Below, in pieces: positions 2,692 to 21,197 of a DNA stretch of 36,081 nucleotides (its first letter is position 1; each line of letters begins with the position of its first letter). This stretch comes from a virus, in the IMG/VR virus record IMGVR_UViG_3300017971_000537, positions 1 to 36,081 of that record; one strand, given 5' to 3'. Both the position numbers and the translations under genes were made by a program. The notes under the pieces were generated by a model. That model had not been told where the DNA came from. It made no database searches and worked only from the letters and a program-made list of their open reading frames with translations.

Positions 2692-3216
2692 ATGTCTAAA
2701 TTAAATATGGGTTATGTTCTTGTCAAACATCCAAACCACCCAAATGCCCACCATGATGGTTATGTCCCAGAGCATCGGCTCATTGTTGAAGCCCATCTTG
2801 GTCGTTATCTTACGCCTAAGGAATGTGTCCATCACATTAATGGGGATAGATCTGATAATCGCATCGAAAACCTTGTTGTAATGACATACCAACATCATGC
2901 ACAAATACATAATGGCAATTTTCATATGCTTTCCAATAAAAAATGGCTTGTCTATCAGTACATAACCCTGAATAAAACAATTATAAAAATATCAAAGGAG
3001 CTTGGATGTAGCAATACCTCTGTTTACAAAGCACTTAAAAAACATAAAATTAAAATTAAGGTTCGACATAAAACCAGATTTCCAAAGCTCCTTGACAAAA
3101 AATGGCTTAGAAAAAAAACTGAAACCATGACCCAACATGAAATAGCAAAACTTCTTGGTTGTAGTCATACCTCTGTTTACAGGTTCCAAAAATATTATAA
3201 TATCCATAAGCCATGA
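2692..3216 (+). CDS. HNH homing-type endonuclease with two helix-turn-helix repeats
   Basis: A 174-residue HNH nuclease. The metal-finger core reads EHRL (H28), VHHING (H47-H48), then N56 and N60, the pattern of phage HNH_3-type enzymes that nick or cut DNA. Two similar DNA-binding repeats follow: residues about 97-120 (ISKELGCSNTSVYKALKK) and 147-170 (HEIAKLLGCSHTSVYRF), each preceded by KKWL. A good ribosome site (AGGAG) and its own promoter lie upstream. It sits on the strand opposite to the flanking capsid and beta-helix genes, as expected for a free-standing homing endonuclease inserted between them. It is related to the HNH nuclease at 10284-10856, but there the helix-turn-helix is N-terminal. 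Confidence 0.9.
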   Translation: MSKLNMGYVLVKHPNHPNAHHDGYVPEHRLIVEAHLGRYLTPKECVHHINGDRSDNRIENLVVMTYQHHAQIHNGNFHMLSNKKWLVYQYITLNKTIIKISKELGCSNTSVYKALKKHKIKIKVRHKTRFPKLLDKKWLRKKTETMTQHEIAKLLGCSHTSVYRFQKYYNIHKP

Positions 3217-8566: not shown

Positions 8567-8581
8567 ATCACCCCTAAAACG

Positions 8582-8624
8582 AAAAAAAGGCCGCAAACAA
8601 GTGGGTAAGCACTTACCTGCGACC
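8582..8624 (-). terminator. Rho-independent terminator between terminase and portal
   Basis: On the minus strand GGTCGCA (8624-8618) pairs with TGCGGCC (8595-8589), allowing one G-U pair, and seven T residues follow directly (8588-8582). An inner perfect repeat GGTAAG/CTTACC can add to the stem. The hairpin ends only 16 bases before the portal ATG, so it would partly stop or attenuate late transcription between packaging and head genes. Confidence 0.65.
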
Positions 8625-8634
8625 CTTTTCTCTA

Positions 8635-8656
8635 CCTGTTACCCGTCGGTAACAGG
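8635..8656. repeat. Nine-base-pair hairpin after the small gene 8675-8884
   Basis: A perfect 9-bp inverted repeat, CCTGTTACC / GGTAACAGG, with loop CGTC. It lies between the stop of the small gene at 8675 and the terminator at 8582-8624. On the minus strand no T-run follows; on the plus strand AT-rich DNA follows after a gap. Together with the next hairpin it forms a tandem hairpin pair. Confidence 0.5.
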
Positions 8657-8674
8657 CAAACTTTTATTTAATTT

Positions 8675-8886: not shown

Positions 8887-11373
8887 TTAATACCCCGTAT
8901 ATCTGTCTACTACATTATTTCCCACTACCCTTGGTTCCCCGTAATGGTTGAATGGGGGGCCATAGAGTTTATCAACCGGGATCTCGATAGCAATTTTCAT
9001 GCCAGTAAGGATGAGATATTTCAGGCAGTCCATTAAATGGTCATTCTGTTTGACCACTTTCCCGTTCTCGTCCCTATGGTAAAGCCTAAACTCGTCAAAG
9101 AACGGGCGTAACGACCTAAATATCTTTAGTCTGCCCGACACCAACCGTTGCCAAACAGCAAATATACCAGCCTCAACAGGATTCTCTGCAAGGGATAAAT
9201 CCAAGCCAAGCTCAACATACTCGTTAAATAGGCTTTTACCGTCCTTCTGGCTTGAAGCCCGTGAAGCAGGATCAGCACAACCCGGTATCCATGACCCTCT
9301 GGCGTTTATCGCCTGGACATGGGTAGCTGGTTCTGCTTGCCCTTGCTTGTAGCATGAATAAATATAGACGATATCCGATTCTCTATCCCATGCCCCCCAC
9401 AGAGCAGCGGTAGCATTCCAACCCACATCTAACGCATACGCCCGTGGATACCACAGGGGAATCTCAAAATCGTCACACGCTATATCTTCCTCTAATATCG
9501 GGTATATCGCCCCTGCACCCAACTGAGGAATACCCTTTGCTCTGGCATCCCGTAAATAGGGGGGTGTTCCGTCTAATATCTCCTGCTTCTGCGATTCGGT
9601 TAAATGGGGGGCATCCTCCCATGTAGCGTTGATAATGAACTTTGACCCCTCCTGGTCTTCGGGGATTATGCCATTAGGCATAAAATTCATAACAACTTCA
9701 GATAATCCCAACAACGGTGTAAAGGTCAGGATCACCATACCGTTCGTTGTCATGGTACGAATTAGGCACTCACCGTATATTGCCATTGAACATTCTTCGT
9801 CCAACCATGCAACATCGACTTCATCCCCCTGGAACGCCTTACGTTTCTGGTCAAACGACTTAAACACCCCACGGCTCAACCCCCCAGATGTATGTTTGAC
9901 AAGAACAGATTCAACCGCATCCGGAACACCCCCTGCCTTTGGGTTGACCTTAGCGATAGTGTCCTTCCGGATCATGCCCGTGCCGTATTGTCCCGGGGGC
10001 CCTAACAGTTTTGCCTGTTGAATATCCCTCACGGTCTGGGATGTATCACCCGCCATCCAACACAAAACAGGGTCTTTAAACCTTCTACCCTCCCACCAAT
10101 CAGGATACTGACCTGTTAGGTGTAACGCTACCTCATACGCCCCAATTCCCTCACTATTATGATGTACCAAACCACCTGCAATATAATTATGATATTTTTC
10201 TACTTCAAAATCAAAAACGGTATTGACACCAATAGATTTTATTGATACTATATACTTACTACTTTTAGTAAAGGAGATTTCTGATGCCACCAAAGATTGA
10301 GTTGGATTTAGCAGATTTAAAATATTTAATTGAGTCGAAGGGATTACAGCTCCACATTGTTGCAAAGATGTTAGGGGTGAGTAGATCAACAATTCTAAGG
10401 GCTTGCAAAGAGCATACAATAAAAACTCAAAGAAATGGCCCACGATCTGGTTCAGATCATCCTGGATGGAATGGAGGCAATATTTCAACAAATGGATATA
10501 ATTATATTTACTGCCCCGACCATCCATATTGTACAAAACAGAAAAGAGTTTTTGAACACCGGCTCGTAATGGAAAAGAAACTTGGTCGCTATCTTCACCC
10601 TGAAGAAGTTGTGCACCATAAAGATGGGAACCGTTCCAATAACCACCCAGATAATTTAGAGCTTTTTTCAACAAATAATGTTCATAGATGTTTTGAATTA
10701 ATGGTACGGATAAAATACCTGTCTCAGAAAGAGCGTAGTCGTCTTCAGAGTGCTCTTGACAAAATCCCGAATATATCTCGGAAACGAATTGCCAACCATG
10801 ATCAGTTAGAACGCGATGATTTAGGGCGGTTTCTACCCAAGAACCGTCAGACATAGTTATTCTTACACACGGTTCTTTGTTGGGTTTTTTGAATGGGGCT
10901 TTTGCTTGTGCTATCACCTTTTTTTGACCATCCCACGAAAATACTTTGAATGGTTTCCCTATTTCAAAAAGTTGTCCAATACTTACTTCCCCGTTAGGCG
11001 TTTGTATAAGTGTTTGATATGTCAGACATTTTCCAATACGATTCGCGGCGATTATCGCCCGTTCCCTCTTAACCGCCCCCTGCCTGAAAAATTCAAGGTG
11101 TGGCCTGTATAATTCCCTTCTTAACGGTCCCCTGTCGGGGTAATATATGTCAATCTTGTTGTATAGCTTGCGATTTTCAAGCTCCGTTACCTGCACAAGC
11201 ATACTTTCAAGCTCAGAACGGGGTATGCCGTCCAAATCATCAGGTGTTATCTCTTTTCTGGCCCTTGTTATCTCCTCAAAGGTCTTCCTGACGATCTCGA
11301 CATCACACCCTTTGGCCTTGACTACCTTTTTTTTAGGCTTTTTTGGTTGTTTTTCGGGCTTTTTTATTGGCAT
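8887..11373 (-). CDS. Terminase large subunit, interrupted by an intein
   Basis: Packaging ATPase and nuclease that moves and cuts phage DNA at the portal. Numbering from an in-frame TTG at 11391: the Walker A motif ANRIGK-SEGIG is split after K121 by a 291-residue intein and resumes at S413. Walker B is VAWLDE (527-532), the coupling motif TFTP is at 556-559, and the nuclease acids are D655 (ALDVGW), D707 (CADPAS) and D788 (HLMDCL). Without the intein the protein is about 540 residues, a normal TerL length. I prefer ATG 11373, though neither start has a strong ribosome site; the start lies inside the 3' end of the small gene 11333-11518, so coupling is likely. Active enzyme requires protein splicing. 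Confidence 0.93.
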   Translation of the reverse strand: MPIKKPEKQPKKPKKKVVKAKGCDVEIVRKTFEEITRARKEITPDDLDGIPRSELESMLVQVTELENRKLYNKIDIYYPDRGPLRRELYRPHLEFFRQGAVKRERAIIAANRIGKCLTYQTLIQTPNGEVSIGQLFEIGKPFKVFSWDGQKKVIAQAKAPFKKPNKEPCVRITMSDGSWVETALNHRVLTDHGWQFVSEIYSGFCQEHSEDDYALSETGILSVPLIQNIYEHYLLKKALNYLGGYWNGSHLYGAQLLQGEDSDQVSFPLRAGVQKLFSVLYNMDGRGSKYNYIHLLKYCLHSIQDDLNQIVGHFFEFLLYALCKPLELLIYSPLTSLQQCGAVIPSTQLNILNLLNPTQSLVASEISFTKSSKYIVSIKSIGVNTVFDFEVEKYHNYIAGGLVHHNSEGIGAYEVALHLTGQYPDWWEGRRFKDPVLCWMAGDTSQTVRDIQQAKLLGPPGQYGTGMIRKDTIAKVNPKAGGVPDAVESVLVKHTSGGLSRGVFKSFDQKRKAFQGDEVDVAWLDEECSMAIYGECLIRTMTTNGMVILTFTPLLGLSEVVMNFMPNGIIPEDQEGSKFIINATWEDAPHLTESQKQEILDGTPPYLRDARAKGIPQLGAGAIYPILEEDIACDDFEIPLWYPRAYALDVGWNATAALWGAWDRESDIVYIYSCYKQGQAEPATHVQAINARGSWIPGCADPASRASSQKDGKSLFNEYVELGLDLSLAENPVEAGIFAVWQRLVSGRLKIFRSLRPFFDEFRLYHRDENGKVVKQNDHLMDCLKYLILTGMKIAIEIPVDKLYGPPFNHYGEPRVVGNNVVDRYTGY
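10223..10251 (+). promoter_or_regulatory. Sigma-70-type promoter inside the intein, for the antisense HNH gene
   Basis: TTGACA at 10223-10228, 17 bases, then TACTAT at 10246-10251. It points at the HNH ATG 33 bases further on. On the other strand the same bases encode part of intein block F (GVNTVFDF) and the strand before it (YIVSIK), so promoter and splicing domain share DNA. The -35 box, spacing and promoter-to-start distance match those of the HNH gene at 2692. Confidence 0.8.
10284..10856 (+). CDS. HNH homing endonuclease encoded antisense within the intein
   Basis: A 190-residue HNH nuclease. An N-terminal helix-turn-helix (about residues 22-45, HIVAKMLGVSRSTILRACKEH) is followed by the HNH core: FEHRL (H92), VVHHKDGNRSNN (H111-H112, N120), and DNLELF (N124). 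AAAGGAG lies seven bases before ATG 10284 and a consensus promoter lies upstream. It lies completely inside the intein but on the plus strand; its last 25 or so codons overlap intein block B in antisense. The core resembles the HNH gene at 2692 (both have EHRL, GRYL.P.E and VHH...G.RS.N), but the domain order differs. It would probably cut intein-free terminase genes and so drive intein homing. Confidence 0.92.
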   Translation: MPPKIELDLADLKYLIESKGLQLHIVAKMLGVSRSTILRACKEHTIKTQRNGPRSGSDHPGWNGGNISTNGYNYIYCPDHPYCTKQKRVFEHRLVMEKKLGRYLHPEEVVHHKDGNRSNNHPDNLELFSTNNVHRCFELMVRIKYLSQKERSRLQSALDKIPNISRKRIANHDQLERDDLGRFLPKNRQT

Positions 11374-11518
11374 TCGACAACTTTTTCGCAATTATCCTTA
11401 ACGTACCATCACTTTTGCGCCTTTTTACCCCTAAAAAAACATAACCTTTGGGAAAAAGCCAAACCTGATCCCCTTTAACCTCAATAAAACGGGGTTCTAA
11501 TTCAATTATCTTTGGCAT
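11333..11518 (-). CDS. Small basic protein overlapping the terminase start
   Basis: A 61-residue protein (MPKIIELEPRFIEVKGDQVW...) with a beta-type first half and a very basic tail (KKLSNANKKARKTTKK). AGAAGGA lies five bases before ATG 11518. It overlaps the start of TerL by about 40-60 bases and is itself overlapped by the end of the next small gene upstream. The basic tail suggests nucleic-acid contact. Function unknown. Confidence 0.6.
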   Translation of the reverse strand: MPKIIELEPRFIEVKGDQVWLFPKGYVFLGVKRRKSDGTLRIIAKKLSNANKKARKTTKKA

Positions 11519-15268: not shown

Positions 15269-15898
15269 ATGAAAATCACAAGAAAAACACACAAAGAATT
15301 ATTTAATGCGGTTGAGTTTTGCCATAAAGCCAGCTTCACAGATAAAAGTAAAAGTGACCGCCCATATTATTATAACACACTTGAGGTCAAAAACGGCCGA
15401 TTGTGTGCAACTGACGGTGCCCGACTACATTATCAACCAATAACTGATTTACCCAATGGTGTCTATGATTACAGTAAAAAAGGGAGCACTATTACTTTAA
15501 CAAAACATGACAATAATAATTATCCCGATATTGACAAGGTTATCCCGCGTCAATACGCTCACACCGTGGAAGTAAACCGTGACGAATTGTTAAGGATATG
15601 CCGGCAAGCACTTATTATGGTAAATAACCACTGGAGCTGTTTGTATTTGACCTTTAACGGTCATCTGGAAGTAAAAGTAAGTAACCCGGACCTTGGCGAA
15701 TATGCAAGCGAAACAGAAACATCAAAAGTGGTTGATCCTGAAAGCACTGTAGCAATCAACCCTAAGTTTATCCGTGATGTTTTAACCAGCTTTAAAAGTA
15801 AAAATGTAACCATCAAACTACAACCAGAAGCATATAAAATGCCGCTTGTACTTCAATCAGGAGATAAAACCGCCCTTGTTATGCCAATGAGAATATAA
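15269..15898 (+). CDS. Short DNA polymerase sliding-clamp-like protein (DnaN type)
   Basis: A 209-residue protein matching the second half of bacterial beta clamps (about 370 residues). Residues 40-55 read VKNGRLCATDGARLHY, like the 'l.lvATDg.RL' strand. NYPDIDKVIP (84-93) matches the FPDY.RVIP end of clamp domain II. VAINPKFIRDVLTSF (161-175) and the C-terminus ALVMPMRI match domain III. Clamps encircle DNA and tether polymerases through domain III. With only two domain-like parts, a ring would need more than two subunits, or the protein may imitate or bind host clamp partners. AAGGAGGG precedes ATG 15269. Confidence 0.78.
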   Translation: MKITRKTHKELFNAVEFCHKASFTDKSKSDRPYYYNTLEVKNGRLCATDGARLHYQPITDLPNGVYDYSKKGSTITLTKHDNNNYPDIDKVIPRQYAHTVEVNRDELLRICRQALIMVNNHWSCLYLTFNGHLEVKVSNPDLGEYASETETSKVVDPESTVAINPKFIRDVLTSFKSKNVTIKLQPEAYKMPLVLQSGDKTALVMPMRI

Positions 15899-17785: not shown

Positions 17786-17925
17786 TTTTTAATCTCTCCT
17801 TTAAAAATCTTTAGAATTTTCCTGAGTGTCCCGCCACAAATACATTTATCACCCTCATCATACGGGTAGGTCTCAACACGACCACACTGGTCACATTTCA
17901 CAAAAAATTCAAATGTTTTGTTCAT
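17761..17925 (-). CDS. Small zinc-ribbon protein
   Basis: A 54-residue protein from ATG 17925 to TAA 17761. Two cysteine knuckles, CDQCGR at about residue 11 and CICGGT at about residue 28, form a zinc-ribbon pattern, followed by a basic helix (LRKILKIFKGEIKK). The start overlaps the stop of the replication gene as TGATG and GGGGG lies before it. Too small to assign a role beyond probable metal and nucleic-acid or protein binding. Confidence 0.7.
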   Translation of the reverse strand: MNKTFEFFVKCDQCGRVETYPYDEGDKCICGGTLRKILKIFKGEIKKCTHTQNG

Positions 17926-18680
17926 CAAAACCCCCTCTCTTTCACGACTTCGGTTATGTATTTAGCCCTCGGTATACTATCTCTTTCTATTTCTACCATG
18001 ATTTCGTCTTCCCATCTCGATTGATTTAACCATGTTGACGGGTTTGGAATATACTGCCCGTTATCTTTTTGCCATTGGAGGGATTTCTTTTGTTTTTTAA
18101 TGGCATCTAAAATAACCTGTAATTGTTTTTCGGATTGTGGTATTTTTTGCCATGCTTTAAGGGCCGCACCTTTACCAATTTTTTTAGGATATGCCTTCCA
18201 AAACACATTAAAATAGACAGGGTTTTTTTTATTTACATTATTTACATTATTGTTTAGTGCCGCACCTGTTCCACACCTGTTCCGCACCTGTTCCACACCT
18301 GTTCCACAAGTGTCCGGTAAGTATGTTTTAGGGTTCTGATATTTCCAATAATTTAATACCTTTATGTGTGTTCCGTAGGTGTCCGTTAAAGCCTCAATAT
18401 AATCATTTTCCACTAAATATTTTATCATACGAGCAACCTTTTGCTTACTCCATCTTCTTAATATTTTCCTTTCTAAATATTCGTTATTATCTGCTATTTG
18501 GTTAAGGCTTGTTACTAATTCCCCTTGATTTATAGAAAACCCTGGATATTTTTTTGGTGTATTGCTTCTCCTGGCCGTACCTATAAAATAAAGAAACAGC
18601 TTTAAAACGTGAGGATTATCTGTCCAAATGGCAGAAGTGAAAAGGTTTCTTGTTATAAGAATATAGGTTAATTGAGTCAT
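17925..18680 (-). CDS. Replication initiation protein, lambda-O/DnaD-like architecture
   Basis: A 251-residue protein. The N-terminal half is a winged-helix domain typical of phage replisome organisers (FINQGELV-like segment at about 49-57, then ILRRWSKQKVARMIKYLVENDYI). An Asn-rich linker (NNNVNNVNKKN) leads to a C-terminal module FWKAYPKKIGKGAALKAWQKI ... NGQYIPNPSTWLNQSRWEDE, a sequence pattern common at the C-terminus of phage replication proteins that recruit the helicase. The linker DNA holds four 11-base iterons and an AT-rich block, as in lambda O. It overlaps its neighbours on both sides by a few bases. Confidence 0.85.
   Translation of the reverse strand: MTQLTYILITRNLFTSAIWTDNPHVLKLFLYFIGTARRSNTPKKYPGFSINQGELVTSLNQIADNNEYLERKILRRWSKQKVARMIKYLVENDYIEALTDTYGTHIKVLNYWKYQNPKTYLPDTCGTGVEQVRNRCGTGAALNNNVNNVNKKNPVYFNVFWKAYPKKIGKGAALKAWQKIPQSEKQLQVILDAIKKQKKSLQWQKDNGQYIPNPSTWLNQSRWEDEIMVEIERDSIPRAKYITEVVKERGF
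18223..18315. repeat. Iteron array with AT-rich block: candidate replication origin
   Basis: Four tandem 11-base units (G/A)CACCTGTTCC occupy 18262-18272, 18273-18283, 18284-18294 and 18295-18305, with a degenerate fifth at 18306-18315. Immediately beside them, 18223-18256 is almost pure A/T and contains two copies of ATTTACATT. The array lies within the replication gene, in the part coding for the linker. Iterons one helical turn apart next to a melting region, inside the initiator gene, is the lambda ori plan. Origin function is inferred. Confidence 0.7.
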
Positions 18681-18937
18681 TATTCGATATGAACAACTTT
18701 GACGGTCAAGCCTAAATTTCTTAATATTTTGTGCATTCGCTCTTGTTCTTTTGTCAGTATGCCTCCCATAGGATGATTATGTTTCTTTTCATATTTTGTA
18801 GCCTTTGCTTTAACCTCAATAAAAATAGCCTCATTCTGGTCTTCTTTATACAAAAGAAAATCAGGCCAGCCTTTTGTTAAAACCTCCCATCCATTGTCAA
18901 TACATTTATCATAAACAATTTTTTCTCTCTTTTGCAT
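18680..18937 (-). CDS. VRR-NUC-type PD-(D/E)xK nuclease
   Basis: An 85-residue protein with KGWPDFLLYKED (Asp about residue 26), IFIEVKAKATK (ExK about 41-43) and the typical later helix LTKEQERMHKILRNLGLTVKVVHIE. These are the catalytic residues and order of VRR-NUC enzymes, small nucleases found alone in many phages and fused to helicases or FAN1 elsewhere. GGGGG lies six bases before ATG 18937. It is the first enzyme of the operon behind the structured leader at 18955-19035. Its substrate is unknown; branched or flapped replication DNA is plausible. Confidence 0.85.
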   Translation of the reverse strand: MQKREKIVYDKCIDNGWEVLTKGWPDFLLYKEDQNEAIFIEVKAKATKYEKKHNHPMGGILTKEQERMHKILRNLGLTVKVVHIE

Positions 18938-19059
18938 TATTTACCCCCAAACGCAAAAGTGGCCTTAAGAGCACTTGCAACCGGAGATGTCGGTTGTCTC
19001 GCGGTCGCCCAACGAGAACTCTTAAAGCCACTTTTAAATTTGATAGTTTTAATTTTCAT
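18937..19059 (-). CDS. Possible 40-residue leader peptide
   Basis: A frame from ATG 19059 (MKIKTIKFKSGFKSSRW...) to TAA 18937 overlaps the nuclease start as TAATG and spans the whole dyad structure at 18955-19035. The ribosome site is weak. It may be a translated leader whose ribosome remodels the RNA fold, or simply an open frame inside an RNA element. The basic, Ser/Ala/Thr-rich sequence resembles no protein I know. Confidence 0.35.
   Translation of the reverse strand: MKIKTIKFKSGFKSSRWATARQPTSPVASALKATFAFGGK
18955..19035 (-). ncRNA. Structured 5' leader: three-way junction RNA
   Basis: Bases 18955-18971 pair with 19019-19035 as a 17-bp stem. As minus-strand RNA every position pairs (one G-U); as plus-strand RNA that position is a C-A mismatch. 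Inside, 18978-18983/18991-18996 (CAACCG/CGGTTG) and 18997-19001/19013-19017 (TCTCG/CGAGA) form two adjacent hairpins. The element lies between a consensus promoter (19081-19109) and the VRR-NUC start at 18937, leaving the GGGGG ribosome site just outside the stem. It may be a cis-regulator or a separate small RNA. I cannot assign a known RNA family. Confidence 0.65.
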
Positions 19060-19080
19060 CTCATATTCTCAAGTTCTCTA

Positions 19081-19109
19081 TTAATACCATAACCATCCAG
19101 AACTGTCAA
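19081..19109 (-). promoter_or_regulatory. Sigma-70-type promoter for the nuclease and replication operon
   Basis: Read on the minus strand, TTGACA (19109-19104), 17 bases, then TATTAA (19086-19081). Transcription would begin near 19074, giving a leader of about 140 bases that contains the three-way junction before the VRR-NUC gene. The promoter lies between that gene and the stop of the upstream small gene at 19122. Confidence 0.8.
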
Positions 19110-19121
19110 CCACATTATCCC

Positions 19122-20097: not shown

Positions 20098-20126
20098 ACT
20101 TTAGCATAGACAAAATATTTTGTCAA
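20098..20126 (-). promoter_or_regulatory. Leftward promoter with overlapping palindrome
   Basis: TTGACA (minus strand, 20126-20121), 17 bases, TAAAGT (20103-20098). A perfect 16-base palindrome GACAAAATATTTTGTC (20109-20124) covers the -35 end and most of the spacer, an ideal place for a repressor. It would drive the zinc-protein gene at 20090 and those after it. Confidence 0.6.
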
Positions 20127-20151
20127 GCCATGTTTTATGCCAAAATAAGAC

Positions 20152-20181
20152 TTGACAAAGCAATTTTGTGTATGTTAGTAT
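20152..20181 (+). promoter_or_regulatory. Rightward promoter of the divergent pair
   Basis: TTGACA (20152-20157), 18 bases, TAGTAT (20176-20181). The sequence CTTGACAAA...TTTTGTGTATGTTA matches the opposing promoter's CTTGACAAA...TTTTGTCTATGCTA, so both may share a regulator. The next plus-strand gene with a good ribosome site is 460 bases away, leaving a long leader or a noncoding RNA between. Confidence 0.6.
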
Positions 20182-20645
20182 CCTAAACCATGAAAAACAA
20201 TCTGCTCCCTACGTCTAACGAGGGCGCGGATAAATTAACCTGGAATCCTAAACTTTGAGAAACCATCACAAAAAAAAAGAGTGGTCAGTAAAGCAAGGGA
20301 TTTCAGGTTGGCAGGGGCGCGTTACTTGTCAACTAACAGCTTGACCTTAGTTCGCCGTGAAGGGGTGGGGCAGATCGCCTGCGGAAAACTTTAGACACCG
20401 GGGGCACTATTATCTGGTACAGGCCAATATTGTTTATTTGCTGATGCAAAAATCGGGTGTGGCCCACGGCAATGTTACAAAAATTAACAGCTTAACCTTT
20501 AACGTATACTTGCGGGGGATTGGTGTTTAGGGGACTACACCACGACAAGAAAAGGTTTCCCAGGACTGGCAGCACGAGCCATGGCCAAGGGTGCCAGCAG
20601 AGTCATGGCAGCCCCCGCAAGTATAAAATAACTGAGGTGAAATTC
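20182..20645 (+). ncRNA. Noncoding region with strong dyads, candidate structured RNA
   Basis: No supported gene lies in these 460 bases; a 22-codon frame from 20190 has no ribosome site. The DNA is unlike the AT-rich intergenic DNA elsewhere, with many G-runs. TATACTTGCGGGGG (20505-20518) is the exact reverse complement of 20612-20625, giving a 14-bp stem that encloses GGTGT/ACACC and CTGGCA/TGCCAG hairpins. GCCGTG near 20353 can pair with CACGGC near 20465. ATCCTAAAC is repeated near 20180 and 20245. It lies downstream of the rightward promoter. A noncoding RNA or a DNA site (origin, packaging, recombination) are both possible. Confidence 0.5.
20492..20503 (+). repeat. Repeat copy TTAACCTTTAAC before the first structured element
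   Basis: TTAACCTTTAAC occurs here and at 20998-21009, each 2-5 bases before a strong stem (20505 and 21015). A diverged copy, ACAGCTTGACCTTAG, is at 20336-20350 and resembles ACAGCTTAACCTTTA here. Such a repeat before each structured block suggests a shared promoter-like or protein-binding element. Confidence 0.5.
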
Positions 20646-21009: not shown

Positions 21010-21014
21010 TTATG

Positions 21015-21178
21015 CTGGCAGTGGCGGAATTGGCAAGTCCACGCTGAAGGGTAGTGAAGAGGTTGGCGGGTTCTTCGCTTGCCATTGGTAGACGCACTGT
21101 GGTCGATCAGTCCGTAAGTATGGCTATCGAGGAATCGTAAGCATAGTCCAGGTTCCAGGTTCGAGTCCTGGCTGCCAG
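21015..21178 (+). tRNA. tRNA-like element, oversized, anticodon not assignable
   Basis: The ends are tRNA-like: CTGGCAG (21015-21021) pairs perfectly with CTGCCAG (21172-21178), and CCAGG-TTCGAGT-CCTGG (21155-21171) is an ideal T-arm. The 5' part has a tRNA-Leu-like D-arm, GCGGAATTGG...TAGACGC, but it is split by a 55-base segment flanked by ATTGG copies (21029-21033, 21084-21088); removing it restores GCGGAATTGGTAGACGC. The rest before the T-arm is still longer than any normal anticodon and variable arm, with a CGTAAG repeat, and I find no acceptable anticodon loop. At 164 bases it may be a decayed tRNA, a tRNA-like RNA or an attachment site. A 94-base fold starting at 21085 is weaker. Confidence 0.5.
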
Positions 21179-21197
21179 TACATTTTAGGGGGTTGTC

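Follow-up and report, generated by a model that had tools for sequence, protein, structure and literature searches.

Gene context of the folded element

The analysed stretch of DNA, in the following referred to as the window, is a virus record of 36,081 bases from an uncultivated phage (IMG/VR record IMGVR_UViG_3300017971_000537), with a G+C content of 42.5%. Its minus-strand early genes span from about position 20126 down to position 17925, and the RNA fold described here lies near the middle of this run. On the minus strand the genes follow each other in this order:

about 19462-19289, minus strand, Lar-like ORF
19280-19122, minus strand, ORF52
19056-19115, minus strand, ORF19 (MWLTVLDGYGINRELENMR), assigned from its sequence and codon usage
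18937-19059, minus strand, ORF40 (MKIKTIKFKSGFKSSRWATARQPTSPVASALKATFAFGGK), 40 codons
18680-18937, minus strand, VRR-NUC nuclease gene directly downstream of ORF40 (PF08774 with 24.6 bits, above the cut-off; phrog_5702)
17925-18680, minus strand, replication initiation protein gene (phrog_270, E 2.9e-28)

The last four genes are linked by ATGA or TAATG overlaps: the start codon of ORF40 overlaps the stop codon of ORF19 (ATGA), its stop codon overlaps the start codon of the VRR-NUC gene (TAATG), and a TAATG junction also joins the VRR-NUC gene to the replication gene. As a whole, ORF40 has the codon usage of a real gene, since its score is reached by 0.06% of the open wrong-frame segments of that length, and judged by its sequence ORF40 is likely translated. 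The gene-like signal comes from 12 flanking codons; the inner 27 codons, i.e., those within the stem described below, are neutral with a score of 0.014, which is reached by 13% of the wrong-frame open segments.

Promoter-like sites

At 20098-20181 a promoter-like divergent pair lies over an inverted repeat, with TTGACA-17-TAAAGT on the minus strand and TTGACA-18-TAGTAT on the plus strand. This region is likely the early control region. A second promoter-like site is found closer to the fold:

19081-19109, minus strand, promoter-like match TTGACA-17-TATTAA with a TG before the -10 element, inside ORF19

It was proposed in the earlier note that the folded stretch is a leader transcribed from this consensus promoter. 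The pattern is indeed present, about 35 nt upstream of the base of the structure, and 0.06 exact matches to it are expected. However, its -10 element TATTAA is without the final T, the site is absent from the list of the promoter scan, and there are ten sites in the window at which a perfect TTGACA is combined with four or more of the six -10 positions, some of them within other coding genes. The TTGACA-17-TAAAGT at 20126 qualifies just as well as promoter of the operon. Moreover, the site lies inside ORF19 and the fold sits inside the probable 40-codon ORF40, which is itself part of a chain of overlapping ORFs, so that an untranslated leader is an improbable reading of the folded stretch. As a warning, promoter-proximal leaders called in dense phage genomes may sit within overlapping small ORFs.

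The three-way-junction fold

The fold and its parts are located as follows:

18955-19035, minus strand, three-way-junction element of 81 nt, exactly 27 codons of ORF40, with a 17-bp closing stem (19035-19019 with 18971-18955)
18997-19017, minus strand, hairpin 1, UCUCG(U)/(G)CGAGA with a two-pair tip and a GCGA (GNRA) tetraloop at 19008-19005, pair probability 0.78
18978-18996, minus strand, hairpin 2, CAACCG/CGGUUG with a loop of 7 nt, pair probability 0.79
18944-19046, minus strand, extended structure with a wobble-rich outer stem CAAAUUU/GCGUUUG and CUAUC (19046-19042) pairing with the GGGGG Shine-Dalgarno sequence of the VRR-NUC gene (18948-18944)

The three-way-junction fold on the minus strand is real as described in the earlier note, a 17-bp stem enclosing two hairpins set side by side. 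The stem arms AAAAGTGGCTTTAAGAG (19035-19019) and CTCTTAAGGCCACTTTT (18971-18955) form 16 Watson-Crick pairs and one U-G pair (19026-18964) in the minus-strand RNA. As the plus strand has A opposite C at the same position, pairing along the whole closing stem is confined to the minus-strand RNA, as had been stated before. In transcripts of up to 600 nt the stem retains a pairing probability of 1.0 and both hairpins of about 0.78. By wobble pairs the stem is predicted to extend to about 24 bp with one U-C mismatch, probably ending in the pairs with the Shine-Dalgarno sequence of the VRR-NUC gene.

The minus-strand element, folded as 83 nt, has an energy of -41.6 kcal/mol compared to -21.3 +/- 3.2 kcal/mol for dinucleotide shuffles (z -6.35; 0 of 200 shuffles as stable), and the plus strand reaches -34.7 kcal/mol (z -5.4). 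The element is also the top-ranked local inverted repeat in the window. For comparison, 35,960 composition-matched windows of 83 nt were drawn on a coarse grid from 126 records comprising the window and related phage loci. Of these, 13 (about 0.04%) are as stable as -40 kcal/mol or more, and none of the 13 is multibranched.

Stability beyond the coding constraint was assessed by keeping the ORF40 peptide. None of 4000 synonymous draws made with the phage's own codon usage is as stable as the natural sequence, two of 2000 synonymous permutations are, and ORF40 ranks first by its fold among the 181 coding tiles of the window. This synonymous null is imperfect, since two other coding tiles reach synonymous z values of -4.1 and -3.8.

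Strand of action

The extended helices contain six non-Watson-Crick oppositions, five of which are U-G and one U-C on the minus strand, whereas none of the six is G-U on the plus strand. Together with the GNRA loop of hairpin 1, which is formed on the minus strand, this favors a role as RNA in the minus-strand transcript, as the earlier note had suggested. The wobble bias is suggestive only, because the sign test over the five informative sites gives about 0.06 and the helices used for the count were drawn on the minus strand.

Search for relatives

The earlier note could not match the element to a known family, and the covariance search against Rfam likewise returned nothing relevant at the gathering score and up to E 10; the best match was a microRNA model with 21.8 bits compared to a cut-off of 99. 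Relatives of the element itself were searched for in phage and plasmid records, IMG/VR and related phage loci, and this search for homologues, as proposed in the earlier note, yielded none in collections from which the records nearest to the window may be missing. Exact patterns from hairpin 1, hairpin 2 and the two stem arms gave no matches in IMG/VR, and none was confirmed when IMG/VR was queried with the VRR-NUC protein, the replication protein and ORF40. Using relatives of the terminase and of RecT, 131 loci were collected. Searching 50 records of the terminase set for the replication gene gave one partial match of 29% only, and searching 50 for VRR-NUC gave none; in 23 records of the RecT set one VRR-NUC gene was found, in unrelated surroundings. 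BLAST of the locus, the element, VRR-NUC and ORF40 against phage and plasmid records resulted in just two matches at chance level, both to the same virion gene of a Citrobacter phage.

A covariance model built from the single sequence found above chance only the element itself and its own opposite strand in 1.35 Mb of related loci. In about 700 genomes it gave one match, with about 0.7 expected by chance. This match was rejected as a relative, as it falls within a secretin-like gene and has no reading frame in common with ORF40.

The earlier note had compared the compact layout to HEARO/omega RNAs. Common to both is a compact RNA of several stems that is proposed to lie 5' of a nuclease gene, but the comparison is not supported. 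In HEARO nuclease genes the 5' region mostly matches the Rfam family RF02033 (PMC9755519), whereas Rfam, including HEARO, is silent on the element even at E 10; the nuclease downstream is VRR-NUC and not IscB/TnpB, and no IscB/TnpB-like gene was found among the genes scanned. An HNH gene is present at 2692-3216, on the plus strand amid minus-strand structural genes; it consists of HNH_3 and helix-turn-helix domains and is of the homing-endonuclease type.

A proposed cis-acting structure at the ORF40/VRR-NUC junction

The element is an orphan, and most likely it serves local control or cutting of the message rather than being a new guide RNA. The reading that we tentatively put first is a structure of the early-operon mRNA that acts in cis where ORF40 and VRR-NUC join, as translational gate or as RNase III-type processing site. 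It is favored because the stability exceeds that of the shuffles and of all 4000 synonymous draws and ranks first among the 181 tiles, and because of the wobble bias. Also in its favor, ORF40 overlaps both neighbors (ATGA and TAATG) and its overall codon usage is gene-like. In untranslated messenger the structure would keep the Shine-Dalgarno sequence of VRR-NUC partly closed, and a ribosome starting or moving on ORF40 would open it, thereby coupling translation of ORF40 and VRR-NUC. The pairs between CUAUC and the Shine-Dalgarno sequence have a mean probability of 0.84-0.91, and of about 0.17 with the ORF40 start masked as by a ribosome. However, the occlusion is equally strong in 40% of the synonymous ORF40 versions, so that gating is a plausible consequence of the structure that is unsupported beyond chance. 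Moreover, a three-way junction of about -42 kcal/mol exceeds what gating needs. It also counts against this reading that the searches gave no homologue in which covariation could reveal selection on the fold. In known translational coupling hairpins the downstream Shine-Dalgarno sequence likewise pairs with the upstream coding sequence at a TAATG overlap; here this pairing is the mere foot of a far larger structure and stays within the synonymous null.

Alternatively or in addition, the long duplex might serve as substrate of an RNase III-type nuclease, parting the message of the upstream small genes from that of VRR-NUC and the replication gene. The 24 pairs of the extended stem, with one U-C mismatch, reach the duplex length of about two turns (at least 22 nt) expected of RNase III substrates; for E. 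coli RNase III targets the minimum duplex is about 22 nt (PMC5371410). Judged by this length, RNase III may cleave the extended duplex. A duplex of about 24 bp between genes of a polycistronic message resembles the sites at which RNase III processes operon messages of phages and of E. coli, but the element is a two-hairpin junction instead of a simple stem, and its cleavage is only predicted. Should the fold have a function, the same bases would serve both a very small phage gene and a strong RNA structure where the operon switches to the replication genes.

Alternative explanations

A discrete trans-acting small RNA, made from the internal promoter-like site or cut from the operon message as DicF is from dicBF, is somewhat unlikely. 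The self-contained, compact three-way junction with its GNRA loop and the TTGACA-17-TATTAA located about 35 nt upstream of its base would suit such an RNA. However, a terminator-like stem with a U tract is absent after the element on the minus strand, the promoter-like site is one of ten in the window, the structure extends inside ORF40 as far as the Shine-Dalgarno sequence of VRR-NUC, and Rfam holds no matching small RNA family. With DicF, which comes from the dicBF operon of the Qin prophage in E. coli, the element shares that a structured RNA lies among the small genes of an early phage operon and that RNase III might plausibly release it; it differs in having no family match, in lying within a probable ORF and in abutting a Shine-Dalgarno sequence. 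Quite improbable is the further proposal of a new phage-specific structured RNA, dual-coded in the 40-residue gene and excised from the early message, which regulates host or phage targets.

The element might also be an in-frame palindromic insertion in a short gene, similar to a small MITE or to the palindromic elements of Rickettsia. Palindromes inserted in frame are known from Rickettsia (PMC10969869), and the element shares with them a stable palindromic stem in the coding frame. Its length of exactly 81 nt (27 codons) is in phase, its own codons score as neutral (a level reached by 13% of the wrong-frame open segments) between 12 flanking codons that are gene-like, and without it the ORF40 frame encodes a peptide of 13 residues. 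This origin is nevertheless unlikely: such elements occur in dispersed copies, whereas this one is single-copy in the window and no similar copy or family was detected in phage and plasmid records, with the core patterns in IMG/VR, in related phage loci or in the about 700 genomes. Furthermore, there is no clear target duplication, and 12 flanking codons carry little statistical weight.

Similarly, it is improbable that ORF40 is an ordinary small gene whose message folds well by chance. For chance speak that no homologue showing conservation of the fold was found, that the site was chosen from 36 kb for being striking, that about 0.04% of the matched windows are equally stable and that other coding tiles reach synonymous z values of -4.1 and -3.8. 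Against chance stands that the natural sequence is matched in energy by none of the 4000 synonymous draws and by two of the 2000 permutations, and that no multibranched fold of this stability occurs among the control windows. A site acting at the DNA level, i.e., a single-strand or cruciform hairpin as replication origin, priming or recombination site, is very improbable, as the wobble pairs favor an RNA of one strand and no iterons are seen by eye at the locus, in spite of the nearly perfect DNA arms and the adjoining VRR-NUC and replication initiation genes.

Other features of the window

Further structured sequences were observed in the window. At 20505-20625, in a gene-poor stretch of 1 kb, an element has a perfect inverted repeat of 14 bp (TATACTTGCGGGGG/CCCCCGCAAGTATA) and several hairpins in its interior (z about -2.6 for either strand). 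At 21014-21181 on the plus strand a tRNA-like sequence without Rfam match is found by ARAGORN only with introns allowed, as tRNA-Ser(gct) with a 77-nt insert and non-canonical arms. Among the coding regions, the gene at 15269-15898 encodes a protein that matches the C-terminal (sliding clamp) domain of DNA polymerase III beta, and the terminase large subunit (8887-11391) carries an intein (Intein_splicing, residues 135-412). Finally, two strong tandem hairpins lie upstream of the portal gene at 8571-8660 on the minus strand, the second having about 17-23 pairs as well as a T-run, and these hairpins are also present in two related phage loci (L002 and L003).
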